From Streptomyces palmae (lineage in GTDB: Bacteria; Actinomycetota; Actinomycetes; Streptomycetales; Streptomycetaceae), in assembly GCF_004684805.1 (NCBI RefSeq), contig NZ_SRID01000014.1:1-43983 (forward strand): DNA of 43,983 bases, read 5' to 3'. The notes under the pieces were generated by a model. That model saw nothing but the letters and a program-made list of their open reading frames with translations, did no database searches and was not told the origin of the DNA. The position numbers and the translations under genes were made by a program. This document shows, piece by piece, positions 6,859 through 39,423 of the stretch (position 1 is its first letter; every line of letters begins with the position of its first letter).

Positions 6859-6862
6859 GAAG

Positions 6863-19894: not shown

Positions 19895-20006
19895 CAGTGG
19901 TGCCGAGGTTCTCCGGGGTGGCGGTGAGTGCCGTGCGCGGTAGGCCGGAGATCGACCACCAGGGAATCGCCTGGAAGCTACCTCGGAGTTCGGCTTCGGG
20001 GTGGCT

Positions 20007-20070
20007 AAATGATCATTTCAAGATTCTCGGATAAAGGGATCGTCCTACGTCCTGTTGTGCCATCATGATG
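20007..20070. promoter_or_regulatory. AT-richer control region with two palindromes, upstream of the large operon
   Basis: The 254 bp before the eight-gene operon are less GC-rich than the surroundings. They contain two perfect palindromes: AAATGATCATTT (20007-20018) and CATCATGATG (20061-20070). A possible promoter is TTGTGC (20055-20060) with TACGAG 18 bp later, just overlapping the second palindrome. These may be binding sites for a regulator not encoded in the window. Confidence 0.45.
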
Positions 20071-20148
20071 CACTCGGGTACGAGCACTTCCGGTCGGCGG
20101 TCGAGTGTGTCGTGGTGATCAAGTGCGCGGCCCGAGAGGCGAGACGGC

Positions 20149-22116
20149 ATGTCGACATCGGTGATCGACAGATCGCATCGGGGGAGTCGCCGGATGGGAG
20201 GATCCCATATTGATCAAGCGTGCCCGGTGTGCGGAAATCCCGAGCAGGGCACCGAGTTCTGCGCGGTCTGCGCATGGCTGCTCCACGATGATCCGGTTCT
20301 GGGCGACCTGACCGAGGAGGACGTGCGCCGGGCGGCCTCGGCGCTGCGGGCGGCCGAACACGCCTGGGACGTACGGGCGGCGGCGCTCGCGGTGCGGGGC
20401 GCCGACGTCCGCGACGGCGGTGGCGGCGGACCGGTCGCGGACGTACTCCGCGGGGGGCCGCCCAGGCCGGGGGAGAAGGTGCCGTCGCCCCCGGAGGATT
20501 CTCCCGGGAATATGCCAGAAGCAGGCGCGGCAGGGTGTCGGGACATTCTCGACGAGCTGCTCGGCCGCCATGTCGAGGAATTGCTGTTCATCGAATTCAC
20601 GCCTGAGGGCGTGCAGGTGATCAAGGTTTCGGTGGGCGAGGGGGGAATACCGCGCCACACCGACGGGGGAAGCACCGAATGGCGTTCCCTGGCGCCGGCG
20701 CTCGACGCCCGCGAGGATATCCGCCGCTTTCAACTCGCGGGCGGTATCGGCACGCTGCCGCCCGTCGGGCGCACGGAATTCGACGCCACCGTCCGGCGCT
20801 GGCTCAGGGCGTACATCCCGCCCTCCCGCGAACGCTCCCTGGTGCTGCTGACCCCCCGCGGCGGATGGGTCCTGCTGGAGCGCGCCGCGGCCATCGTGCG
20901 CGGCGCCTATCCCCTCCGGGCCGAGCTGCGCAGGGGCCACGCGGTCGCCGCGGACGGTCCGACCCCCGATGCGGTGGGGGAGGTACTGCGCACCGCGCCG
21001 CTGCTGGCCGACCACACGCTGCTGCTGGCCCGAGCCGACCGGCTGACCGGTGCCGTGCGCCCGCACAGCCATGTGCTCTTCCCCGCCGGTTCCCGGCTCG
21101 CCCCCGGGGAGACGGCGACCGCGGAGGTCGTCGTGCACGGCGGAGTCGGCCCCCCGGCGCCGCTGCTGCTGCCCGTGCTGGCCGGCGCGCCCGCCGCCGA
21201 CGGCACCGGCGCCGTTCCGCTGGCCGTCCACCAGGTCACCGTGGGACCGCTGGAACAGGCCCGGTTGCGCTTCGTGCTGCGCGGGCCCGGCGAGGTCGAC
21301 CTGGTCGCACCCGCCGCCGGCGCCCCGGGAACGCAGGGGCGGCGGTCCGCCGTCGACGTGCCCGGCCTGGTCCGCCGACTGCCCCGCCGCGTCATCCGCC
21401 CGCCCCGGCTGGAGCTCCTGTGCACCGTCGAACTCAGCGGCGCGCAGCAGGCGGAGACCGAGGAGCGGCTGGCCTTCGTCCGCGACCTGATCACCGCACT
21501 GGCCCGGCAGGACGGATCCGGTGCCGCCTTCCGCGCCGGCGCGGTCGGCCACTACGACCACGCGGTCCACGAGAACCTCTACACCTCCCGGCGCACCCTG
21601 CTGCAGGCGCCGGTGCCGGCCGGCCCCCCGCACACCACGCTCGCCGCACTGGCCGGCTGGCGGCCCGCACAGCGCACCCAGGACATGGCCTCCTCGCTGG
21701 AGGACGCGCTCAAGGCGCTGGTGCAGCTCGTCACCGGTGCCGCCGGTGCCACCGGCGCCGAGGACGTACGGCGCGTGGTGCTGATCGTCGCGCGCAGGCC
21801 GCCGGGACTCCCCGAGCAGCGCGGCATCGTCCCGGCCTGTCCGCTCGGGGTGGACTGGCAGCCGGCGCTCGACCGGCTGCGCGCCGCCGGCGTACAGGTG
21901 ATGACCAGAGCGGACCCGGTCACCGGTCCGCTGCCCTACGACCACCCGGGCGCCGCGGCCCGGCGCTACGCCGACGCGGCGTGGGCGGCCCTCTCCGCCG
22001 ACGGCGCCTTCCGACCCGGCACCGACTCGGCGGCGGACGTGGCCAGGGCACTCGCCCCGCCGTGGCGGCTGGAGGGCCCCGACTGCCGCCTGGCCTTCGC
22101 CGCCCCGCTCATATGA
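20149..22116 (+). CDS. Zinc-ribbon protein with degenerate vWA domain
   Basis: First gene of the operon, 655 residues. A C4 zinc ribbon is formed by Cys25, Cys28, Cys38 and Cys41 (CPVC, CAVC). A variable linker and a middle domain (about 130-290) follow, then a beta-rich part (about 300-410) and a C-terminal von Willebrand factor A-like fold (about 423-640). In it the usual DxSxS is replaced by VELSG, the TxD-type helix TQDMASSLEDALKAL is kept, and the LxDG strand reads VLIVARRPPG, so the metal site is broken. ATG 20149 is used; ATG 20194 with a GGGGGAG ribosome site is a serious alternative. It is likely a cytosolic scaffold or sensor. The next gene is 27 bp downstream. Confidence 0.82.
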   Translation: MSTSVIDRSHRGSRRMGGSHIDQACPVCGNPEQGTEFCAVCAWLLHDDPVLGDLTEEDVRRAASALRAAEHAWDVRAAALAVRGADVRDGGGGGPVADVLRGGPPRPGEKVPSPPEDSPGNMPEAGAAGCRDILDELLGRHVEELLFIEFTPEGVQVIKVSVGEGGIPRHTDGGSTEWRSLAPALDAREDIRRFQLAGGIGTLPPVGRTEFDATVRRWLRAYIPPSRERSLVLLTPRGGWVLLERAAAIVRGAYPLRAELRRGHAVAADGPTPDAVGEVLRTAPLLADHTLLLARADRLTGAVRPHSHVLFPAGSRLAPGETATAEVVVHGGVGPPAPLLLPVLAGAPAADGTGAVPLAVHQVTVGPLEQARLRFVLRGPGEVDLVAPAAGAPGTQGRRSAVDVPGLVRRLPRRVIRPPRLELLCTVELSGAQQAETEERLAFVRDLITALARQDGSGAAFRAGAVGHYDHAVHENLYTSRRTLLQAPVPAGPPHTTLAALAGWRPAQRTQDMASSLEDALKALVQLVTGAAGATGAEDVRRVVLIVARRPPGLPEQRGIVPACPLGVDWQPALDRLRAAGVQVMTRADPVTGPLPYDHPGAAARRYADAAWAALSADGAFRPGTDSAADVARALAPPWRLEGPDCRLAFAAPLI

Positions 22117-22143
22117 CCCACCGTCCCGGTACGAGGAGACCCC

Positions 22144-23304
22144 ATGTCCGCTGATTTCTACGACCCGAACAAGAAGTCGTCCGGCGGTCCGACGACGTCC
22201 TCCGCCGGTGGCCCCGCAGCGTCCGCCGAGCCCGCACCGCCGCCCATCCCGCCGCCCGCGGGCGCGCCCGCCTACCCGGTCCAGCCGCCGCTGCCGCCGG
22301 TGGCGGACGGCAACCTGGAACCGCTGCGCATCCCGACCGCGCCGCAGGGTGAGGGGGCGGCCCAGGACCGCGTCCGGATCGGGCTGTGGGGCGCGCCGCG
22401 CTCGGGCAAGACGACCTATCTGGCCGCGCTGCCGATCGCCGCGATGCAGGGCCGGCGGCACAGCCCGCACAACTGGCTGATCAGCGGCATGACACCGGAG
22501 GCCAACAACTTCCTCGGCGACAGCGTCTCCCAGCTCGCGGTCCGGCGGGTCTTCCCTCAGGCCACCGTGGGCATCCAGAACATGAGCTGGGCGTTCCAGG
22601 GCGAGGTGGCGCCGTCGGGGATGATGCGGCACCGGACCCAGCAGGTGAGCTTCGTACTGGAGATCCAGGACGCCTCGGGCGAGGTGTTCAAGCGGGACCA
22701 CCCCCAGCACCAGGGGATCGTCGACCAGCTGGCCCGGGCCCAGGGCCTGATCTACCTCTTCGATCCCCTCGGCGACGCCCAGGAACTGACCGAGAGCCTG
22801 ACCTTCTTCTACTCGACGCTGAACGAACTGAGCACGCGCATCCGGGACATGGGCGGGCACTACCGCGGCCGACTGCCGCACCATGTCTCCGTCTGCGTCG
22901 CCAAGTTCGACCACCCGGACGTCTTCCGGCCCTCCGTGGAGGCGGGCTGGGTCACCCAGGACACGGTGGGCTCGCAGCTGCCCAGGGTCCCCGCACAGCT
23001 CAGCGAGCGCTTCTTCCAGTGGATGTGCGACGACTTCCGCGGCTCCAACGCCCGCCTGGTGCGCGACGGGCTGGCCAACTTCTTCCATCCCGACCGCATC
23101 AGCTACTACGCCACGTCGGCCATCGGGTTCCGGCTCAATCCGCAGCACGTCTTCGACTACCGCAACTACGTCAACGAGGAGATCGTCGACGGCGTGCGCC
23201 GGATCTGCACCTCGCCCGAGCCCATCAACGTCCTGGAACCGCTGACCGACCTGGAGCACAACATCCGCACCGCACGCGCCGGGCGCAAGGGGTGGCGGCG
23301 GTGA
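22144..23304 (+). CDS. TRAFAC-like GTPase (double-GTPase family type)
   Basis: This 386-residue P-loop GTPase starts with a disordered Pro/Ala-rich tail of about 75 residues, then the G1 motif GAPRSGKT (83-90), a G3-like DxxG in EIQDASGEVF, and a G4-like AKFD (VCVAKFDHPDVF) in place of NKxD. Conserved tryptophans and the NNFLGDSV region fit the TRAFAC-type GTPases that pair with GTPase-associated protein 1 in actinobacterial conflict systems (family name from memory). It should be a cytosolic switch or assembly factor. Ribosome site GAGGAG is five bases before the ATG. Its stop overlaps the next start (GTGA), strong coupling to its predicted partner. Only one GTPase is present, though the family name implies pairs. 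Confidence 0.85.
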   Translation: MSADFYDPNKKSSGGPTTSSAGGPAASAEPAPPPIPPPAGAPAYPVQPPLPPVADGNLEPLRIPTAPQGEGAAQDRVRIGLWGAPRSGKTTYLAALPIAAMQGRRHSPHNWLISGMTPEANNFLGDSVSQLAVRRVFPQATVGIQNMSWAFQGEVAPSGMMRHRTQQVSFVLEIQDASGEVFKRDHPQHQGIVDQLARAQGLIYLFDPLGDAQELTESLTFFYSTLNELSTRIRDMGGHYRGRLPHHVSVCVAKFDHPDVFRPSVEAGWVTQDTVGSQLPRVPAQLSERFFQWMCDDFRGSNARLVRDGLANFFHPDRISYYATSAIGFRLNPQHVFDYRNYVNEEIVDGVRRICTSPEPINVLEPLTDLEHNIRTARAGRKGWRR

Positions 23305-25949
23305 ACGAGGGCCTCGGATCGGTGCGGTTGACCGCCGACTGGGCGGTGCTGGGCAAGCATCCGGGGCAGGCCATGGGGTACGACGTCCTGGACGGCAGCC
23401 TGCCGGCGGACCGCGCCAAGCGCTACCTCTGGGGCGCCACCACCGGGGTCCCGGACAACCGGGACCCCGCGGAGGGGCTGCCGTGGCGGGTGTTCCTGGG
23501 CAGTGTGAGCACGGACCCGACCCCGGTGTGCGCGGCCGTGGAGACCACCTGGGACGGCAGCGCCGACGGCACCGGCGCCCCCAGCTACACCTGGCGGCTG
23601 CTCCTGCTGGAGTGGCCGCAGGCCAGCAACGCCCAACTGACCTGGTCCGCGATCGACCAGGTCCTGCCGCGCGACCGACTGCCCGACTCCGGGACCGGGG
23701 TGTCCCTCGCCGTGCCCCGCACCCCCGCCGCCGAACTCGCGGCCACCGTCGACCGGCTGGGCTTCGACTGGGCCGCCCGGGTCGCCGCCCTGCTGCTCGA
23801 CCACCGGCAGGTGGCGATCGTCACCCCGCCCGGCGCGGCACTCCCGGAGGTCGCCGAGCGCGTCCGCGTCCTGGACGCGGTCTGCTCGCTGCTGCCGTAC
23901 GGCTGCCGCGCCTGGCTCAGCGCCGCGACCTGGACCGGCCACTCCGAGCACGGCCTGCGGCTGGTCTTCGCGGCCACCGCGCGGACCGGGCAACTGGAGG
24001 TCCGGCTGGGCGCGGGCAGCCTGCCCGAACCCCAGGGCGCCGCGGCGCGCACCTATCTCGACGAGCTGCTGAGGCTGCGGGCCAAGCGCCACTCGACCAC
24101 CGACCTGGTCGCACACCTGCTGGCCGCCGTCGCGGTCATCCCGGCACACGGTGCCGCCGAGGCGGTCCGGGTGCTGCGCGAGGCCGACCTGCTGGACTCG
24201 GTCATCGCGGAGATCGGTCACGGACGCGGTGAACTCCACGACGTGCAGCGGGTGCTGGAGCTGTATCCGGCGCACGCCCTGGGCGAGAACCGGCTGCGGG
24301 TGCTGGTGCCCTTCCTGGCCCAGCGCGCGAACCGCGGCAGCCTCCTGGCCCAGGCGGTGCTCCAGCAGCACTGGAGCCCGCTGACCCCGGGGCTGCTCGC
24401 CCGGGACGTCGTCCAGAGGGGCTCGACCCAGGAGTCCTTCGCACGGGCCAGGGGCTATCTGAGCCTGATGAACGCCCTGAACGCGGACCGTCCCGGTGCC
24501 TTCGAGGAGCTGTTCACCGACCTGGTGGGCGACCCGAGCCAGGATCCCGGCTGGACCGGGAACCTCATCTACATGGTGGAGAACGAGTTCGGCCACCGGT
24601 CGGAGGCGGCCGACGCCTTCCTCCTGCGCTCCCCGGCCGCCGGGCTCGCCTGGCTCCGCACGCTGGCGAAGAACCAGACCCCCGACCTGGCCCCGCTCCG
24701 CCGCCTGGCGGAGCGGGGGATCGGCGGGGACGCCGGCGGCACCGCCGGGTGGCCGCGCTTCGCCGCGGTCCTGGTGGGGATCGCCACCCCGGACCAGGCC
24801 ACGGCCGAGGACGCCGCCGAGTTCACCGCGGCCATGGACGACGCCTGGCGGTTCGCCCTGGACATCGCCGCGACGGAGGGCCGGCCGGAGGTGCTGGGCC
24901 TGCTGGGCCCCGAGCTGCGGGAGGTGGCACGGGGCCGGGCCGGCCGCACGTATCTGCTGCACCTCCTGGACCGGCTGGTTCCGCCCGCGGCCGGCGGCAC
25001 GGCGCCGGAGGTGGCCGCGGACGCCGATCTGCTGTACGCGCTGATCGCCGCCGCGCCGGGCGAGGTCCGGATGCCCTTGGCGCTGCCACGGCTGCGGCGG
25101 ATCACCGGCGCGTGGGAGCAGGACGCCTACGCCTCCGCGCTGGTCGACCGGATCGGACCCGACGACCAGCTCCTTCGACTCGTGGTGGAGGCCCTGCTCG
25201 GCGAGGTGCCGAACGCGGACTCCTGGCGGGTGCTCAGCCGGCTCATGGAGCGTCGGCCCACCGCCGAGCACCTGGTGTGCGACGGCCTTGAGCGGCGGCT
25301 CACCCACAACCACCGGACCTGGCTCGACCTGGACTTCCCCGAGGAACTGATGGCGGCGCTGGAGCGCCGGCGCCACCTGGACTGGCTCCGGCCGCTTCGG
25401 GACTTCCGGAACGCCGTCCGGGCCCGCGAGCCGATCGAGGACCTGGCCCGGATCATCGTCCGGGCCACCACTTCGGCCTCCCGCGGGTTCCCCCCGCAGC
25501 TGCTTGCGGAGATCAGCGTCTGGCTGCGGGCCTACGGGGCGTCGGAGGGGTACGCCCTGAAGACCGCGCTGGACGCCGTGGTGCCCGGTCTGGGGCTCGA
25601 GTTGTACACGGCGGTCAGCCGGGGCGAGGAGGGCAGGGCGCTGCGGGACCAGCTGGCCCGGTTCAGCCGTCTCGAAGTCGACCGCCACCAGCGGATCCTG
25701 GCGGCCCTGGGGGCCGTACCGCAGGCCCTGCCCCAGGCGCAGCCGAGCCCGCGGCCCCTGCCGGCCGCACAGCCCCCGCTGCCGGCCCCTCAACCAGCGT
25801 CGCCGAACCCTCAGCCGCCGCCGGCTCCCCAACCACCGGCGGGGACCCTGCCGCCCGTCGCGCCGCCCCAGCACGCCGAGCGGAAGAAGGGCCTGCTGCG
25901 GAAACTCCTGCCGGATCGCCCCGACTGGTATCGGGGTACGAGGGAATGA
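23301..25949 (+). CDS. GTPase-associated protein 1 (GAP1)-like
   Basis: This 882-residue protein follows the GTPase with a 4-bp overlap. The N-terminal 120 residues (SVRLTADWAVLGKHPGQAMG, then YDVLDGSLP, and later YTWRLLLLEWP) match my recollection of the GAP1 N-terminal domain. The large middle is helical and repeat-like (for example LVPFLAQRANRGSLLAQAVL). The C-terminal end is a Pro/Ala-rich linker (about 810-860) and a basic tail KKGLLRKLLP that might touch membrane or nucleic acid. No catalytic motif is visible. The name means only that it goes with the GTPase; a GTPase-activating function is not implied. Start GTG 23301 overlaps the GTPase stop. Confidence 0.82.
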   Translation: MNEGLGSVRLTADWAVLGKHPGQAMGYDVLDGSLPADRAKRYLWGATTGVPDNRDPAEGLPWRVFLGSVSTDPTPVCAAVETTWDGSADGTGAPSYTWRLLLLEWPQASNAQLTWSAIDQVLPRDRLPDSGTGVSLAVPRTPAAELAATVDRLGFDWAARVAALLLDHRQVAIVTPPGAALPEVAERVRVLDAVCSLLPYGCRAWLSAATWTGHSEHGLRLVFAATARTGQLEVRLGAGSLPEPQGAAARTYLDELLRLRAKRHSTTDLVAHLLAAVAVIPAHGAAEAVRVLREADLLDSVIAEIGHGRGELHDVQRVLELYPAHALGENRLRVLVPFLAQRANRGSLLAQAVLQQHWSPLTPGLLARDVVQRGSTQESFARARGYLSLMNALNADRPGAFEELFTDLVGDPSQDPGWTGNLIYMVENEFGHRSEAADAFLLRSPAAGLAWLRTLAKNQTPDLAPLRRLAERGIGGDAGGTAGWPRFAAVLVGIATPDQATAEDAAEFTAAMDDAWRFALDIAATEGRPEVLGLLGPELREVARGRAGRTYLLHLLDRLVPPAAGGTAPEVAADADLLYALIAAAPGEVRMPLALPRLRRITGAWEQDAYASALVDRIGPDDQLLRLVVEALLGEVPNADSWRVLSRLMERRPTAEHLVCDGLERRLTHNHRTWLDLDFPEELMAALERRRHLDWLRPLRDFRNAVRAREPIEDLARIIVRATTSASRGFPPQLLAEISVWLRAYGASEGYALKTALDAVVPGLGLELYTAVSRGEEGRALRDQLARFSRLEVDRHQRILAALGAVPQALPQAQPSPRPLPAAQPPLPAPQPASPNPQPPPAPQPPAGTLPPVAPPQHAERKKGLLRKLLPDRPDWYRGTRE

Positions 25950-27271
25950 CCGCGCCCACCGCGATAGCGATCGACGCCGGCGCCCGCTTCACCCGCATCG
26001 CCCACCTCGGCGAGGACGGGACGCCGGTGCCGGCCGAGCTGCCCGGTTCGGTGCCCGGGGAGGGGCTGCCCACCCCGGTGGGCACCGGCGGTCACCGCGG
26101 CGCCGCCCTGCGGGACGCGTACGCCGCCTACCGCGAGCACCGCGGCACCCCCGAGCGCGTGGTGCTGGTCGTCCCCCAGCAGGACCGGGCCGACCACGCG
26201 CGCCGGGCAGTGGACGTGCTGACCGCCCTCCACGGCACCGACCCGATGCCCCGGCTGCGGGTGCTGGGAGCGCCGCACGCGGTCATGGCGCTGCTGCGGC
26301 ACACGGCCACCGCGACCGCCCCCCGCTACACGGTGTGCGATCTGGGCGCCGGGGCGGTGGAGGTGTCGCTGTGCGCCTTCACCGCGGGCTCGGTGGCCGT
26401 GACCGGCTCGGCCCGGTACGGGCCCGCCGGCGGCTACGGCGCCGCATCCGACGCCGCCCTGCTGGACGGCGCCGGGCTGCCGGACGACGACGCGGGCCGC
26501 CGGGCACTCGACCAGGCCAGGGCACGGCAGGGGGCAGCGCAGCGGCTCGACGTCGCACTGCGGCGCACCGCACGCCACCCCGGGCGGTACGAGGACACCG
26601 TGGTCCTCCAGGTGGCCGGGCGGGACATCACCGCCGGCATGGTGCGCCGCGCGCTCGACCGGCTCGCCGCCGGTCTCGACCGGGCGCTGGCCGAGGCGCG
26701 GGGCGGCCGGCCCGCCCCGCCGGTGGTCGCGGTGGGCGGCGGGGCGCGGTTCGGCCCGCTGCTGCGGCATCTGGCGGACCGCCAGGGCGAGCCGGTCGCG
26801 CTGCCCGGCGGTGTGGACCCCGCGCACGCCGCCGTGTTCGGCGCCGCGCTGGTCGCCGCCGGCCGGGTCGACCCGGCCGACCGCTATCCGTACGCCGTGA
26901 GCGTGGGCACCCACCGGACCGCGGCGGGCCGACCCCGCGCGGAGGAACTGCTGATCAGCCCCGCCGGCGCGCTGGAACCGGGAGGCGCGACGGTGTTCGC
27001 CGAGTCCGGCGGGCGACGCGTCCTGGTGCGCACCGGGCCGGCCGGTGCGCGGCCGGTCCGGATACAGGTACGCGACGCCGAGAGCGGCGCGGTGACCTCG
27101 GCGGGCACCCTGACGATCCCTCCGGGCGCCGAAGGGGCGCGCTTCCACGTGGGCGTACGCATCGCCGCCGACGGGACGGCCCGTCTCGTCCTGCACCCGC
27201 TGGGCTCCGGGACGCCCAGCGAACACCCGCTCGGCGCCTTGCCGACCGACATCGAGGGAGCCCGTTCGTGA
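25946..27271 (+). CDS. Hsp70/actin-fold ATPase, compact
   Basis: This 441-residue protein has the actin/Hsp70 ATPase fold: phosphate-1 loop AIAIDAGARFTRIA (6-19), phosphate-2 loop VCDLGAGAVEVSL (about 130-142), and adenosine loop VVAVGGGARFGPL (about 263-275). The nucleotide domain is followed by only about 110 residues of beta-strand sequence, much shorter than the substrate-binding part of DnaK, and there is no helical lid. Such divergent Hsp70s accompany GTPase/vWA systems and may remodel partner complexes. Its ATG overlaps the previous stop (ATGA), and its TGA overlaps the next ATG. No J-domain protein is present nearby. Confidence 0.88.
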   Translation: MTAPTAIAIDAGARFTRIAHLGEDGTPVPAELPGSVPGEGLPTPVGTGGHRGAALRDAYAAYREHRGTPERVVLVVPQQDRADHARRAVDVLTALHGTDPMPRLRVLGAPHAVMALLRHTATATAPRYTVCDLGAGAVEVSLCAFTAGSVAVTGSARYGPAGGYGAASDAALLDGAGLPDDDAGRRALDQARARQGAAQRLDVALRRTARHPGRYEDTVVLQVAGRDITAGMVRRALDRLAAGLDRALAEARGGRPAPPVVAVGGGARFGPLLRHLADRQGEPVALPGGVDPAHAAVFGAALVAAGRVDPADRYPYAVSVGTHRTAAGRPRAEELLISPAGALEPGGATVFAESGGRRVLVRTGPAGARPVRIQVRDAESGAVTSAGTLTIPPGAEGARFHVGVRIAADGTARLVLHPLGSGTPSEHPLGALPTDIEGARS

Positions 27272-28878: not shown

Positions 28879-29534
28879 GCACCGCCCCCGCCGTGCTCAA
28901 CGTCGCGGCCACGCATGTCGGCACCGAGGCCCTGGGGCCGGGCGTGCGGTCCGCCCTGTGGGTGCAGGGCTGCCCCTTCCACTGCGCGGGCTGCGTCGCC
29001 CCGGACTGGATCCCCGACCGCCCGGCCCGGCGCGCCACCCCCGGGGAACTGGCGGCGGAACTCCTCGCCGACCCCCGGGTGACCGGTCTGACCCTCTCCG
29101 GCGGAGAGCCGATGCGGCAGGCGGCCGGACTGGCCGAGGTGGTCGGGATCGCCCGGGAGATCCGGGACGTCTCGGTGATCTGCTTCACCGGGTACCGCCT
29201 GGAGCGGCTGCGCGCCCAGCCGCCGGATCCCGGCGTACCGGCGCTGCTCGCCGCCGTCGACGTACTGATCGACGGCCGCTATGTGGCCGCGCTCGACGAC
29301 GGGCGCGGGCTGCGCGGCAGCTCCAACCAGCGGATCCACCACCTCACCCGGCGGTTGGCCGACAGCGGGCACGACCTCGACCGCGGACCCCGCAGCGCCG
29401 AGATCGCCATCCGCGGCCCGGAGGCCCTGCTCATCGGGGTGCCCCCGCCAGGGCTGCCGGCCGCCTTCGACACCGCGGTCGACGCCGTCCGCGGCCGTAT
29501 GTCCCCAGGAAGGAAGCACCACCGTGAGCGGTAA
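28875..29534 (+). CDS. Radical SAM activase, NrdG-like (4Fe-4S single cluster)
   Basis: This 219-residue protein is of the anaerobic ribonucleotide reductase-activase type. The CxxxCxxC cluster motif is complete (Cys33, Cys37, Cys40 in GCPFHCAGC), followed by the SAM-binding TLSGGEP and the VICFTGYRLERL strand. VLIDGRYV and GSSNQRIH are also typical of NrdG-like proteins. In canonical systems this enzyme makes a glycyl radical on a partner enzyme. No glycyl radical enzyme is visible in the window, so the target here is unknown. ATG 28875 overlaps the vWA stop (ATGA), and the stop overlaps the next gene by 11 bp, so it is a true operon member. Confidence 0.9.
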   Translation: MSTAPAVLNVAATHVGTEALGPGVRSALWVQGCPFHCAGCVAPDWIPDRPARRATPGELAAELLADPRVTGLTLSGGEPMRQAAGLAEVVGIAREIRDVSVICFTGYRLERLRAQPPDPGVPALLAAVDVLIDGRYVAALDDGRGLRGSSNQRIHHLTRRLADSGHDLDRGPRSAEIAIRGPEALLIGVPPPGLPAAFDTAVDAVRGRMSPGRKHHRER

Positions 29535-30936: not shown

Positions 30937-33557
30937 CGGAGCCGGCGGTGGAGACGCCACCCGCGCCCGGCCCCACCATGGAACGGTTCGATCCGGCCGT
31001 CCTGCACAGCGGCGAACCGTTCACCATCCTCTACGGCCCGGGCGTGGGAGACGTCTTCGTGGACAGCGCCTACCAGATCTGCTTCTTCGAACAGGCGCTG
31101 TGGCGGCTGCTGCGGGCCGACGGCTTCGAGCGCATCGTCTTCAGCTCCCTCCAGCACCCGGTCTACTTCCGGGACCACGCCTCCCGCGACCTCTCCCGCG
31201 GCGAGAGCCGCCGAACCGCCAGCGCCCCGAACCCGCCGGGCGCACGGACCATGCGGCACCCGCGGCTGCGCGGGCCGCTCGACGCACTGCTGGTACGGGA
31301 CTTCGGCCGCCGACCGGCCCCGGAGCCACCGGGGAACCAGCCGGCCGGCGCCGCCGGCACCGGCTCCGCACCCGCGGCGCCGTCCACCGGAGTCTCCGAC
31401 CCGTTCGGGGTGATGACCCTCGTCGGCTATCTGCGCGGGTCGAAGCGGCGGACCGCGGTGGTCTTCCCGCACGCCGAGGAGATCCTCCGCCACACCCGCG
31501 CCCCGCGGCAGCTGGCCGACGCCCTGGCCGGCTGGGCCGACCACGTCGACGACCGCAACCAGTGGATCCTGGTCTTCAGCAAGCCGACCCTGGACGAGGT
31601 GGCGGAGTTCGTACGGGGCTGCGGCAACTATCCGCGGCTGGACACCTTCGTCACCGAGCGGCGCGCCGCGCCGGGCCGCGGCGGCACCCTCCGGATCGAC
31701 CACCCCCAGGCCGCCGAACTGGAGCGGCTGATCCACGCGGTGCGGGTACGAGAGCGCCTGCGGATCGCCGACTGGCGGGAACTGGACCCGATCGTCAAGG
31801 CGATGGCCGCCCATCCGGAGACCGCCCGCGCCTGGCGGACCCGGCTCAGGGAACTGGCCGCCGCGGGCGGGGAGCTGAGCCGCGACACGGTGCGCCAGTG
31901 GGTGGGCGCGGTGGCCGCCGACGGCCGCACCCCCTGGGAGCGGCTGGCCGCCATGCCCGGACTCGACGCGCTCAAGGAGCATGTCGAGCAGCTGCGGGCC
32001 GAGGTGGAGGCGAACGCGGAACTGCGGGCCGCGGGGCGGCTCACCCACGCCGAACCCCCGGCGCTGCACCTGGTGTTCACCGGCAATCCGGGCACGGGCA
32101 AGACCACCGTGGCCCGGCTGGTCGGCGAGATGTACCGGGACCTGGGCCTGCTCAGCCGCGGGCATGTGTTCGAGGCGAGGATCAGCGACCTGGTCGCCGG
32201 ATACGTCGGGCAGACCGCCGGGCGGACCGAGGCGGCCGTGGACCGGGCCCTGGACGGGGTGCTGTTCATCGACGAGGCCTATGGACTCAGCGACCAGCGG
32301 GAGGGGTTCGGCGGCGAGGCGATCCAGACACTGCTCAAGCGCATGGAGGACGACCGGGGCCGCCTGGTCGTCATCGTGGCCGGCTACCCGGAGAAGATGG
32401 CGGAGTTCCTGGCCGCCAACCCCGGCCTGGCGAGCCGGTTCCCCGGGTACAACATCATCGACTTCCCCGACTACCCACCCGAGACCCTGCACGCCATCCT
32501 GCTGCGCCGCCTGCACGAGCTCGGCCTGAGGCCGGCCGCCGACACCGCCGACCGGCTGCGGGAGATCGCCACCGAGATGCACCGGACCCGCGGCGAGGAC
32601 TTCGCCAACGCCCGGGACATGCGCACCCTCGCCGACGCCGTGCGCAGGGAGTGGGCGCGACGCGTCCGGGGCAACGTCACGGAGCCGGTCAGCGCCGCCG
32701 ACATCCCCGAGCAGTACCGGGCCTACCTGCCCAAACCCCCGCCCACCCCCGCCGCCCTGCTGGCCGAACTCGACGACTACGTGGGTCTCACGCCGGTCCG
32801 GGAGGTGCTCACGGGCCTGGCCGACCGGCTGAGGATGCGCCAGGACCTGGGCAAGGACACCATCGCCCCGCCCCATCTGCTGTTCACCGGGCCGCCCGGG
32901 ACCGGCAAGACCACCGTGGCCCGGCTGATCGGGAAGCTCTTCCGCGACCTCGGCCTGCTGCGCAGGGGACACATGGTGGAGGCGACCCGCACCGACCTGG
33001 TCGCCGGCTATGTGGGACAGACCGCGCCCCTGGTGCGCCAGGCCGTGCACGACGCGCTGGACGGGGTGCTGTTCATCGACGAGGCGTACAGCCTGGTCCG
33101 CGACACGGGAGGACAGGGGGGCTTCGGCGCCGAGGCCATCGACACGCTGAACCGCGAGATGGAGGAGTGGCGGGGCCGCCTGGTGGTGATCGCGGCCGGC
33201 TACCCGCGGGACATGGACGCACTGCTGGACTTCAACGCGGGGATGCGGTCGCGGTTCACCACCCGGGTGCCCTTCCCCGAGTACACGCTCGAGGACCTGG
33301 TGGAGATCCTGCGCCGGATGGCCGCCGCGGACGGCTACACCCTGGGCGCGGGAGTCGTCGAACGGGCCGCGAGCTGGCTGGAGCGGACCCGGCGGGCGAA
33401 TCCGGCCGCCTTCGGCAACGCCCGTACGGTGCGCGGACTGCTGGGGACCATGGAGGGCCGGATGGCGGCCCGGTACGTACCGGGGGTCACCGAACCGGAG
33501 TTCCGGCCCGAGGACGTGCCCGGCCCGCCGGTCAGCCCCCCGTCCGAAGGAGGGTGA
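30933..33557 (+). CDS. Tandem CbxX/CfxQ-type AAA+ ATPase
   Basis: This 874-residue protein has two full AAA+ modules of the CbxX/CfxQ (rubisco-activase/EccA-like) class. The first has Walker A GNPGTGKT (384-391), Walker B VLFIDEAYGL and a GRLVVIVAGYP sensor strand. The second has GPPGTGKT (653-660), VLFIDEAYSL and GRLVVIAAGYP. Both carry the family's VAGYVGQTA pore-region motif. The first 330 residues look like a third, degenerate P-loop module: GPGVGD (35-40) in a Walker A position without the Lys, and AVVFPHAEEIL in a Walker B position. Last gene of the operon, expected to form a ring that remodels proteins. Its 3' end overlaps a convergent gene by 26 bp. Confidence 0.93.
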   Translation: MTEPAVETPPAPGPTMERFDPAVLHSGEPFTILYGPGVGDVFVDSAYQICFFEQALWRLLRADGFERIVFSSLQHPVYFRDHASRDLSRGESRRTASAPNPPGARTMRHPRLRGPLDALLVRDFGRRPAPEPPGNQPAGAAGTGSAPAAPSTGVSDPFGVMTLVGYLRGSKRRTAVVFPHAEEILRHTRAPRQLADALAGWADHVDDRNQWILVFSKPTLDEVAEFVRGCGNYPRLDTFVTERRAAPGRGGTLRIDHPQAAELERLIHAVRVRERLRIADWRELDPIVKAMAAHPETARAWRTRLRELAAAGGELSRDTVRQWVGAVAADGRTPWERLAAMPGLDALKEHVEQLRAEVEANAELRAAGRLTHAEPPALHLVFTGNPGTGKTTVARLVGEMYRDLGLLSRGHVFEARISDLVAGYVGQTAGRTEAAVDRALDGVLFIDEAYGLSDQREGFGGEAIQTLLKRMEDDRGRLVVIVAGYPEKMAEFLAANPGLASRFPGYNIIDFPDYPPETLHAILLRRLHELGLRPAADTADRLREIATEMHRTRGEDFANARDMRTLADAVRREWARRVRGNVTEPVSAADIPEQYRAYLPKPPPTPAALLAELDDYVGLTPVREVLTGLADRLRMRQDLGKDTIAPPHLLFTGPPGTGKTTVARLIGKLFRDLGLLRRGHMVEATRTDLVAGYVGQTAPLVRQAVHDALDGVLFIDEAYSLVRDTGGQGGFGAEAIDTLNREMEEWRGRLVVIAAGYPRDMDALLDFNAGMRSRFTTRVPFPEYTLEDLVEILRRMAAADGYTLGAGVVERAASWLERTRRANPAAFGNARTVRGLLGTMEGRMAARYVPGVTEPEFRPEDVPGPPVSPPSEGG

Positions 33558-34506
33558 CCCGCCCTTCGGTGTCCTGCGCCCCGCGCTCCTCCAACACCTG
33601 GCCCAGCGCCTCGTCCGCCGCCCGGAGCCGCTGGTCGATGGCGTCCGTCACGGCCTCCACCTCCTCCAGCGTGGCGTGCTGCCCCGCCTGCGCTTCGGCG
33701 GTGCCCCCCGCCGCCGCGGCGGCGCCGCGCAGCGCCCGGGCGAGTTCGCGGTCGGCCTGCGCGTGCCGGCGCAGGGACGCCAGCCGCGAGCCCCGCTCGG
33801 CCTGGATGCGCTCCAGGCGGTCATGGCAGGAGGCGAGCTCGGCGAGGCTCGCCTCGTGCTCCCGCTCCGCGGCGGCCAGCGCCCCCTGCGCCTTCGCCGC
33901 CCGCTCCAGGACCTGCCTGGTCTGCGGTGCCAGGACCGCGAGCTGGTCCTCGGTGAGCCGCACCAGCGCGTCACTGCCGGTGCGCAGCGCCCCGTCCACC
34001 CCGGTGTCCCGGCCGCGCAGCTCCGCCAGCCGGCCGCCGATGACCTCCTGCTGCTCGCGCAGCGCGTCCAGCGCGAGAACCAGCCGCTCCAGCCGGCGCA
34101 GCTCGTCGACCTGCCGACGCAGCTCCTCGTGCTCCGCCAGCCGGCGGCGCAGGGCCTCCTCCGCGGCCACCAGCTTCTCCAGGACCTCGCGCTCGGCCGC
34201 GACCCGGTCGCCCGCCTCCGTGAGCTGCCGCATCAGCTCCTCGGTGCCGCGCCCCACCCGGTCCCCGGGCCGGGCCGTCGCCAGCAGCCCGGGCAGCGCC
34301 TCGGCCAGCCCCCGGCCCTCCTCCAGCGCGTCGTCCAGCTCGTACAGGACCGCGAGCGCGTGACTGCCGCCGGCGCCGCCGTCCACCCGGCCCACCGCGG
34401 CCGCGGCCCACCGCAGGGCGCACCCCAGCACCCGCAGCGCGGCCTCCTGCTCGCCGATGCCGGTGGCGGCCAGCACATCCGCGATCTCCCGCCTGGTGTC
34501 GTCCAC
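33532..34506 (-). CDS. Coiled-coil protein, convergent with the AAA+ gene
   Basis: This 324-residue protein is mostly helical. The N-terminal 110 residues (ADVLAATGIGEQEAALRVLG, AVLYELDDALEEGRGLAEAL) are a separate helical region. The rest is coiled coil rich in Glu, Arg and Ala (LAEHEELRRQVDELRRLERL and similar). No membrane segment is present. I prefer GTG 34506 (before DDTRREIADVL), preceded by GGGGGG; ATG 34545 is the alternative. It shares a 167-bp divergent region with the Trypco1-like gene and ends inside the AAA+ gene. It may be an extra scaffold of the system or a regulator of the protease unit. No named family recognised. Confidence 0.75.
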   Translation of the reverse strand: MDDTRREIADVLAATGIGEQEAALRVLGCALRWAAAAVGRVDGGAGGSHALAVLYELDDALEEGRGLAEALPGLLATARPGDRVGRGTEELMRQLTEAGDRVAAEREVLEKLVAAEEALRRRLAEHEELRRQVDELRRLERLVLALDALREQQEVIGGRLAELRGRDTGVDGALRTGSDALVRLTEDQLAVLAPQTRQVLERAAKAQGALAAAEREHEASLAELASCHDRLERIQAERGSRLASLRRHAQADRELARALRGAAAAAGGTAEAQAGQHATLEEVEAVTDAIDQRLRAADEALGQVLEERGAQDTEGRVTLLRTGG

Positions 34507-34673
34507 GACGCCCCCCGTCGGACTCCCGTCCCCTCGGACCCTCATCGAACCCGCCCGTGTCCGGACCGCACCGGCCGGCCGCGGTGCATCACCGGGAAAC
34601 CCGCCCGCGGACGGCGCTCCCGGCACTATCCTCCTTCAGACCGGTGTCCGGCGGGTGGCAGTTCGGGGGACTG

Positions 34674-35003
34674 ATGGCCGAGTTGGTGCGATTCGACGGT
34701 CCTGAAGGGACCTCACTGCTGGTCGAGGTGGCGGACGACGGACCGGAGCTGGAGCTCATCGCCCGGGATCCCAGCGGCGTGGCGCAGGCCGGCCGCCGAC
34801 TGGAGGAGGCGCTGGCGGCGGTGCGCCCGGCCCTGCGCTCGGTGGCCGACTCGATACGGGCCCTGGCGCCCGACGAGTACGAGGTCGAGTTCGGGATGAA
34901 GCTCAACGCCGAAACCGGTGTGGTGATCGCCAAGACCGCCCTCGAGGGGCACTTCAACGTCACCCTCCGTTGGAGCCGGAGCGCTCAGGGCACCGGGGAG
35001 TGA
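34674..35003 (+). CDS. Trypco1-like (trypsin-co-occurring domain) protein
   Basis: This 109-residue protein matches the small proteins annotated as CU044_2847 family/trypsin-co-occurring domain 1 in actinobacteria. It has an N-terminal strand pair (VRFDGPEGTSLLVEVAD), a helix (GRRLEEALAAVRPALRSVAD), and the conserved end VEFGMKLNAETGVVIAKTAL then GHFNVTLRW. Proteins of this family are found next to genes for trypsin-like protease-NTPase fusions. The next gene, 4 bp downstream, is exactly that. The start ATG has GGGGGA upstream. It is a likely partner, inhibitor or adaptor of the protease. Confidence 0.9.
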   Translation: MAELVRFDGPEGTSLLVEVADDGPELELIARDPSGVAQAGRRLEEALAAVRPALRSVADSIRALAPDEYEVEFGMKLNAETGVVIAKTALEGHFNVTLRWSRSAQGTGE

Positions 35004-35007
35004 GCCG

Positions 35008-38000
35008 GTGGCCGCGGCTCGGGAGCGCCCGCCCTGGCTGGTGAGCGTCCGGCGCTCCCGCGCCGAGGATCCGGTCGGCGCCGGGCTGCTGGTCACTCCG
35101 CGGCACGTGCTGACCTGCGCCCATGTGGTGCGCCCGGGGTCGGCCCCGGGGCTGCCCGAGGACCCGGTGTTCGTGCAGTTCCAGCACGCCTCGGCACACG
35201 AGCCGATCCCCGCCACCGTGGTGCCCGGCGGCTGGCACCCGGTCTCCGGCTCCGGGAACGGTGACATCGCGGTCCTGGAACTCGGCGCCCCGGCGCCCCC
35301 GGAGGCGGAGCCCGCACCGCTGCGCAGTACGGACCCCGGCACCTGGGACCACCGGTTCCGCGCCTACGGCTACCCCCAGGAGCGCTCGCGCCAGGGGGTT
35401 CCGGTGCGGGGCGAGATCATCGGCCACGCCGGCAGCGAATGGCTGCAGGTGGAGGCGAGCCCGCACAGCGGCTGGGCGCTGGAACGGGGTTTCTCCGGCT
35501 CCCCGGTGTGGGACATGACGAGCCAGGGTGTGATCGGCGTACTGGTCGCCCGCGACTCGGTGAAGAAGGTCGACCGGCGCACGGCCTACGCGATCAGGGT
35601 GGAGACCCTGGTGCGGTACTGGCCCGCGCTCGCCCCGTACGTCCGCGACGCGACCTCCGAGGAACTGCGGACCCGCCTGGAGAACCTGCTGTGGATCCCG
35701 CTGACCGAGGAGGGGGAGATCCCCCGGGTCGACCAGGTGGACCCGCACGACATCGGGGTCTCCCGGTCCACCTACAGCGACCACCCGGACCAGGCCCCCT
35801 ATGTGCCCCGGCGCCGGCAGGACGACCAGCTCGACGCCGCCCTCGCCGGGGCCAGGTTCGTCCTGCTGGCCGGGCGCTCCAAGGCCGGCAAGTCCCGCAC
35901 GCTGTACGAGGCGCTGCGGCGCACGCTGCCCGGCGCCCGGCTGATCGTGCCGCGCCCGGACAGCTCGGGCTCCCGGATCCTGGACGACCTGAGCCGGCTC
36001 AAGCTGCCGACCGGATCGGACCGGTCCGTGCTCTGGCTCGACGACCTGCACCGCTACCTCCAGCCCGGCGGCCTGGACCTGCAGATCCTCGACCGGCTGG
36101 CCCACCGGAACCCGGCCGTCACCGTGGTCGCCACGCTGCCTGCCAAGCAGCGGGCGGCGCTCACCGCCATGGAGAACGAGGTCGGCCGCATCGCCCGTAC
36201 CGTCCTCGGCAAGGCGCGCACCGTCGAACTGCCGTCGTTCCTCGCCGCCGAGGACGCCGCCGTCGCCCGGGAGCTCTATCCCAGGGAGGACTTCACCTCC
36301 CGCGGCATCGGCGAGCTGATGGTCGCCGCTCCCGCCCTGGAGCAGCGTTTCGGCGACGCCCCCGAGAGCTGCCCGGCCGGCTGGGCGCTGGTGAAGGCCG
36401 CCGCCGACTGGCACCGGATGGGCATGACCGCGCCGGTGCCCGAGGCCGCGCTGCTGGAGCTCTTCGAGGCCTACCTCCGCGCCCACCCCCCGCACGTCGA
36501 CGCCGACGAGTCGCTGTACGGGACGGGCCTGGCCTGGGCGCGGGAGCCGGTCGCCGGCGGCATCGCCCTGCTGGAGCGGGTCCCGGGCCCCGACGGCAGG
36601 CCCGCGTACGCCGGATCCCCGTACCTGTCCGAGTACCTGGACGGCAGGTCCGACGACCCGTCCGCCGCGGTGCCCGCCTTCGCCTGGGAGTACCTGGCCG
36701 GCCGGCAGCCGGCCGGGGAACTGCTCCGGATCGCGTACGTGGCGCTGGTGCGCGCCGAGCCCGATGTCGCCGTGCGGATGTTCCAGCGGGTCGCCCGGGT
36801 GGCGGACGACCGGGAGGGTTCGGCCTGGGCCTCGCTGATGCTCGGTGAGATACGCCTGTACCAGGGGGACTTCGAGCAGGCCGTGGCCCTGCTGGACACC
36901 GCGGCCTCCTCGGGCGCGGAGGACGTGGTCCCGCTCGCCCAGGTCGAGCTGGCCGGAGTGCTCATGATGACCGGTGAGCGGGCCCGCGCGCGAGCGCTGC
37001 TGGAGGTGGCCGTCGGCGCCCGGGACCCGCAGGTCTCGCAGATGGCCCAGGTCGGTCTCGCCCGGGTGCTGGCGTTCCAGGGCGAGGCCCAGCGGGCCGA
37101 ACAGCTGCTGGAGGCCGTCCTCGCCGCCGGCGACGCGGAGGTGACCACCCTGGCCCAGACGGAGCTGGTCCGGGCGCTGACCGACGGCGGCTCGCGGGGA
37201 GTGCGCTCCGGGCGCGCGGCGGGCCGCGAGATCGGAAAGCCCGGTGGCCCGGCGCTGGGAGCCGCCCGCGCGGGTTCGGCCGAGATGGCCGAGCAGCCCT
37301 GGGCGCTGTCCCGGGCGGTGGGCGACTCGATCGCGGGCCAGATCACCGGGCTGGCCGAGGTGAACCTCAGCGGGCTCTACGCCAACCAGGGCAAGCTGGA
37401 CCGGGCCGAGGAACTGCTGAAGTCGGCGGTGAGCAGCGGCGGGTACCACATCGTGCCGCAGGCCCAGTGGGGCCTGGGCGAGCTGTACATGCTGCGGGGC
37501 AGGCTCGCCGAGGCTCACGGGATGCTGGAGGCCGTACTGCGCTCCGGACATCCGCTGCTGGTCCCGCCCGCCACGGTCAGCCTCGCGATCGTGCTGCTGC
37601 GCCAGGGCGACGAGCGGGCCCTGCCCATGCTGCGCGAGGTGGACCGGCTGGGCCATCCCGATCAGGGGCCGCGCGCGGCCTGCGTCCTGGGCGAGTGGTA
37701 CACCGGCCAGGGGGATGCCGAACCGGCCCGGCACTGGCTGGACCGGGCGATCGCCTCCGGCCACCCGGACTGGTCGCTCACCGCCCGGGTCGACCTCGCC
37801 TTCGTCGTGGCGGCGGACCGGGAGACGGACGGCGAGCAGGACGGGACGGCCCGGGCCGAGGAACTGCTGAGGGAGGTGATGCGGTCCGGGCACCCGGAGC
37901 AGGCCCCGCGCGCCGCCGACACCCTGGGTGAGCTGCTGGCCGCGGAGGGCCGGCCGGGCGAGGCGGAGGAGGCCTACCGGGCGGCGATCGCCTCCGGTCA

Positions 38001-39423
38001 CCGCGACTGGACCCAGATCTCCCGGATCAACCTGGCCGCCGTACTGTCCGGCAGCGGGGAGAGCGGCACGGCCGAGGTGCGGGAGCTGCTCACCGAGGTG
38101 ATGGGGTCCGGGCACCCCGAACAGGGTCCGCGCGCCGCCGACATCCTGGGTGATCTGCTGGCCGCGGACGGCCGGGTGGAGGAGGCGGAGGAGGCCTACC
38201 GGGTCGCGATCGACTCCGGCCACGGCGAGTGGTCCCTGATCGCCCGGATCGACCTGGCCGTGATGCTCGCCGACAACGGGGACCTCGCACGGGCCGAGAG
38301 CCTGCTGCGGGTGGTGGCCGAAGCGGACAACCCCACCGCGGCGGTCTGGGCCAACACACTGCTCGGCATGGTCCTGGTGTACGGCGGCCGCAGCGCCGAA
38401 GGCTTCCCGTACCTGCGTGAGGCGGGTGAACGCGGTCAACCGCCGGTGGCCCAACTGGCCCGCTTCCAGCTGGCGAAGTTCCTGCTCGACGGCGACGGCG
38501 ACGGCGACGGCGGCGCCGACCACGCCGAGGCCCGCGAACTCCTGCGGTCCGTGGTCGAGGACGCCCCCTCGGACGTGACCGAGGTGGCCCGTGCCTACCT
38601 GTGCGTGCTGCTGCTGCGCGAGGGCAACCACGACGCGGCCGGGGAACTCATGCTCGGCGTGGAGGAGTCGGGCGACACCGAGGCGATCGCGGTCGCCTAT
38701 CTCGGCGCGGGGGAGTATCTGCTGGAGGTCGGTGAGGTGGAGGCGGCCGGGGACCTCCTGGAAGGCGCCCTGCACGCGGACGACCCGCAGGTCGCGGCCC
38801 GGGCCGGGGCGCTGCTGGGTGTCGTACGCCGTTCCGCCAACGACTTCGAGGAGGCACGGCGGCTGCTGGGCGACGCCCTGGCCACCGGGGACCCGGAGGT
38901 CGAGCCGATGGCCCGGCGCTACCTCGGCAGCACCCTCTTCCGGATGGGCCTGCTCCGGGAGGCCGAGGAGGTCCTGCTCCCCCTGGGCCGCTCGGCGGAC
39001 GCCGAGCACCGGCCGCAGGCGCTGCGCCTGCTGGGGCAGGTCCTGGTGGCGGACGGCAGGCCGGAGGAGGCATACCCCTGGTTCGAGGAGGCCATCGGGT
39101 GCGGCGACCCGGAGACCGAGTCCGCGGCCCGCTACGACTTCGCCGAGTTGCTGCTCAGCATGGGGCAGCGGGAACGGGCCCGGGAGGTCTGGGCCCCGGA
39201 GGTGGCCGAGGAGGAGGAGCCGGCGGACGGCCCCGCCGGGACCGGCCCCCTCCCGGCTCCGGCCGCCGGGCGTGCGCCGGCCGACCCGCCGGGGCCCGCC
39301 CCGCACCCCCTGCCGGCGGTGGTGCTCTCGCTGCTGGGCGACGTGGCCTCCGCCGAGGGCGACGAGGCCGAGGCCCGCTACTGGTACGGCCTGGCCGGGA
39401 ACGGGCCGGAGCCCTCGGCATGA
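35008..39423 (+). CDS. Trypsin-like protease-P-loop NTPase-TPR protein
   Basis: This 1471-residue protein has three parts. Residues 1-205 are a trypsin-like serine protease with His39 (LTCAHVV), Asp86 (NGDIAVLEL) and Ser163 (GFSGSP), all present. Residues about 270-560 are a STAND-like P-loop NTPase with GRSKAGKS (289-296) and Walker B VLWLDDLH (341-348). From about 590 to the end lie many TPR-like helix pairs (AEELLxxAxxSGHPEW style), with the last units also enriched in Gly/Pro. There is no signal peptide, so the protease should act inside the cell. GTG 35008 has a GGGGAG ribosome site and follows the Trypco1-like gene by 4 bp. It is the probable effector of the locus, with the TPR region as sensor. 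Confidence 0.93.
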   Translation: MAAARERPPWLVSVRRSRAEDPVGAGLLVTPRHVLTCAHVVRPGSAPGLPEDPVFVQFQHASAHEPIPATVVPGGWHPVSGSGNGDIAVLELGAPAPPEAEPAPLRSTDPGTWDHRFRAYGYPQERSRQGVPVRGEIIGHAGSEWLQVEASPHSGWALERGFSGSPVWDMTSQGVIGVLVARDSVKKVDRRTAYAIRVETLVRYWPALAPYVRDATSEELRTRLENLLWIPLTEEGEIPRVDQVDPHDIGVSRSTYSDHPDQAPYVPRRRQDDQLDAALAGARFVLLAGRSKAGKSRTLYEALRRTLPGARLIVPRPDSSGSRILDDLSRLKLPTGSDRSVLWLDDLHRYLQPGGLDLQILDRLAHRNPAVTVVATLPAKQRAALTAMENEVGRIARTVLGKARTVELPSFLAAEDAAVARELYPREDFTSRGIGELMVAAPALEQRFGDAPESCPAGWALVKAAADWHRMGMTAPVPEAALLELFEAYLRAHPPHVDADESLYGTGLAWAREPVAGGIALLERVPGPDGRPAYAGSPYLSEYLDGRSDDPSAAVPAFAWEYLAGRQPAGELLRIAYVALVRAEPDVAVRMFQRVARVADDREGSAWASLMLGEIRLYQGDFEQAVALLDTAASSGAEDVVPLAQVELAGVLMMTGERARARALLEVAVGARDPQVSQMAQVGLARVLAFQGEAQRAEQLLEAVLAAGDAEVTTLAQTELVRALTDGGSRGVRSGRAAGREIGKPGGPALGAARAGSAEMAEQPWALSRAVGDSIAGQITGLAEVNLSGLYANQGKLDRAEELLKSAVSSGGYHIVPQAQWGLGELYMLRGRLAEAHGMLEAVLRSGHPLLVPPATVSLAIVLLRQGDERALPMLREVDRLGHPDQGPRAACVLGEWYTGQGDAEPARHWLDRAIASGHPDWSLTARVDLAFVVAADRETDGEQDGTARAEELLREVMRSGHPEQAPRAADTLGELLAAEGRPGEAEEAYRAAIASGHRDWTQISRINLAAVLSGSGESGTAEVRELLTEVMGSGHPEQGPRAADILGDLLAADGRVEEAEEAYRVAIDSGHGEWSLIARIDLAVMLADNGDLARAESLLRVVAEADNPTAAVWANTLLGMVLVYGGRSAEGFPYLREAGERGQPPVAQLARFQLAKFLLDGDGDGDGGADHAEARELLRSVVEDAPSDVTEVARAYLCVLLLREGNHDAAGELMLGVEESGDTEAIAVAYLGAGEYLLEVGEVEAAGDLLEGALHADDPQVAARAGALLGVVRRSANDFEEARRLLGDALATGDPEVEPMARRYLGSTLFRMGLLREAEEVLLPLGRSADAEHRPQALRLLGQVLVADGRPEEAYPWFEEAIGCGDPETESAARYDFAELLLSMGQRERAREVWAPEVAEEEEPADGPAGTGPLPAPAAGRAPADPPGPAPHPLPAVVLSLLGDVASAEGDEAEARYWYGLAGNGPEPSA
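37636..38304 (+). repeat. Recent tandem duplication in the TPR region
   Basis: Units starting near 37861 and 38083 are 222 bp (74 codons) apart and share about two thirds of residues by hand count (SGHPEQ, PRAAD, EAEEAYR in both). A more diverged copy begins near 37636 (LGHPDQ, PRAACVLGE). Recent expansion suggests active evolution of the putative sensor surface. Confidence 0.75.

Follow-up and report, generated by a model that had tools for sequence, protein, structure and literature searches.

The closest described relatives of the module reported here are the GTPase-centric conflict systems of Kaur et al. 2020 (PMC7159879), of which it is a putative variant with a predicted function. In the sections of that article on GAP1-N2-type DO-GTPase systems, a DO-GTPase-like gene is followed by a GAP1-like gene, an Hsp70 partner appears in one theme, and membrane vWA proteins, variable effectors and multicellular actinobacteria are described, all of which have counterparts here. 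Unlike in these systems, FNIII, tubulin and GrpE components are unmatched in the present module, its GAP1-like protein keeps a weak GAP1-M region alone, and its trio of radical SAM, coiled-coil and AAA+ genes is absent from the GAP1-N2 sections of the article. The term 'radical SAM' occurs once in the main text, under FtsH-type MoxR-vWA ternary systems, which as described there share with our module a metal-less vWA protein, an AAA+ protein whose N-terminal part is degenerate, a radical SAM gene and caspase-like effectors; the AAA+ protein here, however, is of the CbbX/SpoVK type with two intact AAA+ domains, a GTPase is present and no MoxR was recognised. The third point of comparison is provided by the Trypco1/trypsin peptidase pairs of the VMAP systems in the same article, in which Trypco1 directly precedes the trypsin-like gene, as it does here. 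In the locus studied by us, however, this pair is tied to the radical SAM/GTPase module, and neither VMAP nor MoxR was found among the scanned window genes. No radical SAM/GTPase/AAA+ module of such make-up was found in the titles and abstracts of the literature matches listed, a scope that leaves out supplements and most subscription papers.

The window, i.e. the whole stretch of 43,983 bp that was analysed (74% G+C), comes from a genome of 7.5 Mb in 801 contigs that is 99.4% complete. A sequence-only reading had delimited an eleven-gene block at 20149-39423, composed of eight tightly coupled genes, a convergent coiled-coil gene and a pair of genes for Trypco1 and a trypsin/NTPase/TPR protein, and this layout was confirmed. 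Genes A-H and the K-J pair are on the + strand and I is on the - strand:

A, 20149..22116, + strand: zinc ribbon (CPVC...CAVC), Hsp70-like beta region (suggestive) and vWA domain without the DxSxS metal motif
B, 22144..23304, + strand: DO-GTPase2-like TRAFAC GTPase with proline-rich N-terminus, Walker A GAPRSGKT and DxxGE
C, 23301..25949, + strand: divergent GAP1-like protein, with a GAP1-M stretch as the sole recognisable part
D, 25946..27271, + strand: compact Hsp70/actin-like ATPase (FGGY_C 2e-4, HSP70 0.23)
E, 27268..28878 (GTG at 27268 or ATG at 27271), + strand: predicted exported, membrane-anchored vWA protein with DTSGS (VWA_2 5.7e-15)
F, 28875..29534, + strand: radical SAM protein similar to NrdG and pyruvate formate-lyase (PFL) activase, CX3CX2C (Fer4_12 1.4e-30)
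G, 29524..30936, + strand: coiled coil with a conserved N-terminal MSGxK tail, a long helix and a C-terminal alpha/beta domain
H, 30933..33557, + strand: N-terminal region without Walker A, then two CbbX/SpoVK-type AAA+ domains
I, 33532..34626, - strand: coiled-coil protein, located after an Hsp70-like gene in other lineages; possible co-chaperone
K, 34674..35003, + strand: Trypco1 protein of 109 aa (PF19493, 91.9 bits)
J, 35008..39423, + strand: trypsin-like protease (TCAHV, GFSGSP), P-loop NTPase (GRSKAGKS) and TPR; exchangeable effector slot

We tentatively favour the view, at somewhat less than even chances, that this is a rare accessory module tied to an exchangeable protease and acting as a threshold-controlled immune or suicide system, in which the radical SAM protein would arm the complex before the protease is released. 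Upstream of A, the window contains a 750-aa open reading frame (17042-19294) with no Pfam match at E ≤ 0.001.

Genome contigs were scanned with a radical SAM alignment, and the best 80 of at least 339 confirmed loci were taken, the 45 closest of which are L001-L045. F, G and H are consecutive on one strand in 43 of these 45 loci (best 80 of at least 339). An extra 1.2-1.4 kb separates F from G in L012 and L032, with the order otherwise kept, and the two exceptions are L007, in which the contig ends before H, and L040, which has F and H without G. Among the remaining 35 of the best 80 loci, G and H were both found in L052 and L057 alone. The close loci belong to Streptomyces, Kitasatospora, Actinomadura, Actinocorallia, Acrocarpospora, Frankia, Actinoplanes, Lentzea, Nocardia, Actinophytocola and Chloroflexi. 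Of the 45 closest loci, 32 contain GTPase B and 13 gave no match for it (best 80 of at least 339); among these 13, the contig of L021 breaks off and L013, L025, L042 and L045 are short stretches, so absence is not established for each, and the whole genome of L013 contains no match to the GTPase profile. The constant core is thus the F-G-H trio of radical SAM, coiled-coil and AAA+ proteins and not the GTPase/GAP1 pair.

The genes around the core keep their linkage across lineages. In all 19 actinobacterial loci outside Streptomycetaceae in which the right flank was examined (L146-L164), the order is F-G-H-A-B-C, an open reading frame in the place of D, and I, all on one strand; a twentieth flank, from Kribbella (L165), has no D or I. 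The D-place frame matched the D profile in 10 of the 19 loci and was unrecognised in 9, which counts against the favoured reading. By reading, its start resembles an actin-fold ATPase in L146, L149 and L156 and does not in L162 and L163. The place and a C-terminal beta motif are kept in L150, L155, L157, L160, L162 and L163, where the Hsp70-like profile does not recognise the gene, and here it seems to be decaying as an ATPase. D also adjoins I in L033, in genome G342 and in the Chloroflexi loci L025, L026, L029 and L044 (the last a weak case), and because the two keep adjoining across lineages, I is proposed as a co-factor of D. An Hsp70-like family (f23) considered as a replacement for D was dropped, since G342 and L033 have D beside I too. 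No GrpE match to I was found at E ≤ 1; the Hsp70-like D itself is present. Sixteen Streptomycetaceae loci have a visible right flank (the window, L001-L006, L008-L012, L128, L129, L131 and L133, of which L002 and L003 are near-identical). Their order is A-B-C-D-E-F-G-H with I inverted, so that compared with other actinobacteria two blocks are swapped and still linked.

Further arrangements were observed around the core. In Streptomyces loci L013 and L022 (the latter in G342), A-C are missing near F, and zinc-ribbon/WD40 and Hsp70-like genes follow H. In the Chloroploca locus L026, tandem zinc-ribbon/WD40-type matches (14980-20453) lie behind Hsp70-I-F-G-H; the type I GTPase-GAP1 pair was not seen in the examined part of the locus, where a distant GTPase match lies at 5755-6981. 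Fourteen loci between L014 and L034, many of them from Actinomadura, carry a relative of the DUF4407 membrane protein of L015 upstream of F on either strand, and a DUF4407-type relative follows I in Nocardia L162 and L163. In Frankia L152 (G437), a second GTPase-GAP1-E set is located on the opposite strand beside the first module.

A second type of module was found in the same genus. Counts of both types over 392 same-genus genomes rest on F, J and H; distant F proteins (110-142 bits) occur in 10 of the 392, and G342 carries both types. The type II order is CHAT-type gene, vWA, radical SAM, coiled coil, ClpB-class AAA+, DO-GTPase2 and GAP1-N2. In the ten loci L136-L145, a vWA gene that we take to be TerY-like is present in 10/10, as are F, the coiled coil and the ClpB-class AAA+ gene (partial in L143), CHAT-type genes in 8/10, and the GTPase and GAP1 within the examined stretch in 6/10. 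L144 has a DO-GTPase2 at 39.5 bits and a complete GAP1, whose N2, M and C domains reach 129.7, 82.1 and 281.8 bits, which places type II close to the published GAP1-N2 systems, and the GTPase and GAP1 of the other five loci are relatives of the L144 pair (phmmer). By comparison, type I as found in the window is a divergent relative. In profile comparisons, H aligns with the type II-class AAA+ protein, N-terminal region included (hhalign, 98.4%), and G with coiled coils from loci of Microcoleus, planctomycetes and Chthonomonadales (96.4%).

The most conserved operon protein is F. Mean pairwise identity over the 16 loci is 0.72 for F, 0.59 for G and H, 0.56 for B, 0.54 for E, 0.52 for D, 0.50 for A, 0.48 for I and 0.43 for C, and 0.61 over 10 loci for J. 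In the window, the cluster motif that identifies F as a radical SAM protein is formed by C33, C37 and C40 (CX3CX2C); among F homologues it is found in 97/98 and the GGE motif in 98/98 (three loci counted twice). F resembles NrdG and PFL activase in its radical SAM core, CX3CX2C motif and small size. The NrdG model is its best NCBIfam match, at 92.6 bits with a cut-off of 126.1, so F falls short of an NrdG equivalog, and its best PDB match is PFL-AE (2.9e-6). F differs from both enzymes in its usual neighbour, which is a coiled coil, and in the lack of a glycyl-radical enzyme in the genome: NRDD and Gly_radical had no match in the 99.4%-complete source genome, and the same searches were positive in 6/14 and 3/14 control genomes. 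The idea that F is a stray NrdG for an anaerobic ribonucleotide reductase, present in the operon by chance, has the NCBIfam match in its favour, but given the score below the cut-off, the missing NrdD and the linkage of F to G-H in two phyla, it is very improbable, and F was rejected as such an NrdG. As no NrdD or other glycyl-radical enzyme was found, F most likely serves a client encoded in the module. PFL activases act on glycine. Since the nearest solved relatives of F do so, the glycine in the tail of G would be the natural candidate substrate.

The gene that follows F begins with MSG-x-K in type I and MSGSPK in type II. The pattern MS[GCT]-x-[KR], sought from 80 bp before to 700 bp after the end of F, was found in 48 of the 54 loci with F above 220 bits (46/51 without three repeats), and in L012, L134 and L032 the tail is present farther from F. 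As a control, the pattern occurs at 171 of 38,840 start codons of other open reading frames with 150 aa or more (0.44%, a set that contains some of the type II coiled coils). Within 25 aa of the profile start, it is found in 5/236 members of A, B, C, D, E, H and I, compared with 52/54 in G. The G alignment contains nine invariant columns, M1 and S2 among them, and G3 and K5 are conserved in at least 90%. In some loci, overlap of the F stop with the G start constrains parts of codons 2 to 4 at most; it leaves the tail unexplained in L026, L029 and L042, where F and G do not overlap. Two observations count against the favoured reading: sister loci L004 and L005 have MSC instead of MSG, and among loci with weaker F the pattern is present in 15/44 (9/10 type II Streptomyces included) and 29/44 lack it beside F.

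In the AlphaFold model of G, the tail precedes the long helix and has low confidence, with a mean pLDDT of 50 for residues 1-10 and 54 for residues 11-20. The fold has no structural match at E ≤ 0.001, and weak matches to AMPK C-terminal regions, above this threshold, were set aside. H contains two GxPGTGKT motifs and matches TIGR02881 at 429 bits (cut-off 423) and CbbX (3zuh) at 2.9e-85. It belongs with CbbX, SpoVK and EccA in the AAA+ domain family and differs from them in having two AAA+ domains, preceded by a long stretch that lacks Walker A. As the sole AAA+ gene recognised among the scanned window genes, matching best as SpoVK/CbbX, it leaves no MoxR beside the vWA genes. CbbX-type motors pull on chain ends. 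The MSG tail could thus serve H rather than F, as a handle for the motor, and F would then modify another target, for example A, H or some small peptide. We regard this as quite possible though doubtful: G-H adjacency is almost as frequent as that of F and G, and the low model confidence over the tail would also agree with such a handle, but in L069 a tail-bearing G lies directly before F and no H was found in 20.6 kb.

B reaches 26.0 bits against PF19993 (cut-off 27), and its 91% identical relative P0001 carries PF19993. In the B family alignment (n = 20), D176 is invariant and G179 and E180 are conserved in at least 90%, which gives the conserved Walker B glutamate expected of DO-GTPases. 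The Pfam DO-GTPase model found no match in the source genome at E ≤ 0.001, which counts against a DO-GTPase assignment of B. GAP1-M was recognised in 6 of 16 members of family C at E ≤ 0.1, the best at 9.6e-5 (23 bits, cut-off 24) and none over the cut-off, and GAP1-N2 and GAP1-C matched none of the 16 at this threshold, so the family lacks the recognisable three-domain GAP1 architecture. Direct comparison of C with the GAP1 of L144 aligned a short GAP1-M stretch alone, at 1% probability. The vWA fold of A is clear by its Z score of 17.1, DxSxS being absent; the structural alignments cover model residues 417-639 and barely test the other parts. Foldseek matches of A to Hsc70 have TM scores of 0.14-0.17 and are suggestive at most. 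A counterpart of D (L026:7307-8890) matches HSP70 at 7.8e-14. In E, hydrophobic stretches at 28-46 and 400-418 flank the vWA domain, with DTSGS at 77 between them, and export is predicted solely from these features. FNIII was unmatched at E ≤ 1 in the ten window proteins scanned (for H, among the 25 of 43 families listed) or in K at E ≤ 0.01. Among relatives of B, P0078 and P0085 are fused to an N-terminal TIR domain.

The K-J pair occupies the end of the module. J matches Trypsin_2 at 3.9e-13 and also TPR, and Trypco1 lies upstream of J in 12/12 further J loci, GTPase-less G342 and fragmented G186 included. I is present in all 16 Streptomycetaceae loci, and the slot contains Trypco1-J in 11, a CHAT protease in four (L004, L005, L008 and L133) and neither in one (L012). 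In four of the five loci without the protease pair, CHAT thus sits in the same place; it was identified by Pfam in L004 and in the other loci by a match to an L004-type profile. The pair is an exchangeable part and no fixed second half of the system. The suggested proteolytic output gains from the CHAT replacement (4/16) and from a caspase-type gene (C14) at the module end in L153. At the same end, L161 has a CHAT-like gene below the cut-off, L159 a TPR gene with a sub-cut-off NACHT match on the other strand, and L164 a BTAD/NB-ARC/TPR gene; in L018 and L027, CHAT genes precede the DUF4407-type gene and F-G-H. The four CHAT loci group as a single clade when eight families are joined in one tree, which was counted against repeated change of the slot, so one event may explain it in Streptomycetaceae. 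Separately, a J-like TPR protein, excluded from the J counts, lies near an F homologue in Anammoxibacter (L068:12662-15952). Upstream of A in G049, another CHAT gene lies with genes for a RES domain (1.5e-18) and, weakly, a Macro domain, and G114 contains similar ones (L170:3101-9084 and L174).

The module is rare. F scores above 270 bits in 10 of the 392 same-genus genomes and J is found at E ≤ 1e-40 in 7, with both in 6. In the seventh J genome, G186, G-H lie at a contig end and I beside J on a different contig, which brings the genomes with the module to 11/392 (10 by F and G186). Linkage itself is invisible in G281, where J, F and H each lie on a contig of their own. In the F genomes that lack J, the slot contains CHAT (G049 and G114) or neither (G345, L012), or the contig ends inside H (G155). 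All seven J genomes have module genes, in agreement with the expectation that the protease pair and the eight-gene unit travel together, and neighbourhood analysis does not bear out the contrary case of units that rarely co-occur (F and J as found, Fisher p = 3e-10). The presence of the module in 11/392 genomes also makes a conserved housekeeping role unlikely.

Rarity bears in the same way on the rival idea that the module responds to envelope or protein-quality stress. In this reading, AAA+, Hsp70 and GTPase proteins would form a chaperone machine at the membrane, and the protease would serve as an outlet for quality control instead of killing the cell. In PMC11237479, a DO-GTPase gene next to PSP genes is reported to be predicted for membrane stress. 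The chaperone-like H, D and I and the membrane vWA or DUF4407-type partners would suit such a role, as would the flanks of the window, which are ordinary metabolic genes with no defence island, a finding that was counted against the defence reading. The same holds for PADLOC, which recognised no defence system among the ten window proteins scanned (K left out); its matches for G, H and J were weak or generic, that of J being to the protease part of Avs1b (27.6 bits). A stress role nevertheless appears unlikely to us: 11/392 genomes is rare for quality control, unrelated proteases are exchanged, and the RES gene and second CHAT upstream of A in G049 and G114 (scanned in G049) are effector-like. 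RES proteins are toxins. Together with the TIR-GTPase fusions P0078 and P0085, the second CHAT, RES and weak Macro genes before A in G049 (in G114 by similarity) would fit a conflict role. The 10-kb flanks of the window, G107, G038 and G194 have A as the sole gene in common. Plasmid carriage was considered and set aside; the 134 plasmid records that match F are all below 60% identity.

For the threshold-controlled immune or suicide system that we tentatively favour, the following course may be envisaged. The membrane vWA protein E, or DUF4407-type proteins in other lineages, would act at the envelope as the sensor of damage or of a phage product, with GTPase B, GAP1-like C and the zinc-ribbon/vWA adaptor A setting the threshold and the Hsp70-like D with coiled coil I holding the complex. 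As the arming step, F is predicted to modify G at its MSGxK tail, with the glycine as the most plausible site. The tandem CbbX-type motor H, encoded beside G, would then pull G and remodel the complex, and the K-J pair (CHAT elsewhere) would be released to cleave proteins and stop the cell. A bolder version, which we consider unlikely as a whole, is radical-armed immunity: an NrdG-type radical SAM protein would mark the MSG tail, perhaps with a glycyl radical or its product, and so license the tandem AAA+ motor, under GTPase/Hsp70 control, to free an exchangeable suicide protease, with a core common to Actinobacteria, Chloroflexi and other phyla. If right, the proposal would extend GTPase-centric conflict systems by a step of radical SAM modification and by a tail dedicated to it as substrate, and give an NrdG-like protein a role in a bacterium without recognisable NrdD. 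Computer-predicted systems would gain a biochemical handle in one enzyme, one tail and one neighbouring motor, and the protease, linked yet exchangeable, opens the suicide-effector idea to a direct test.
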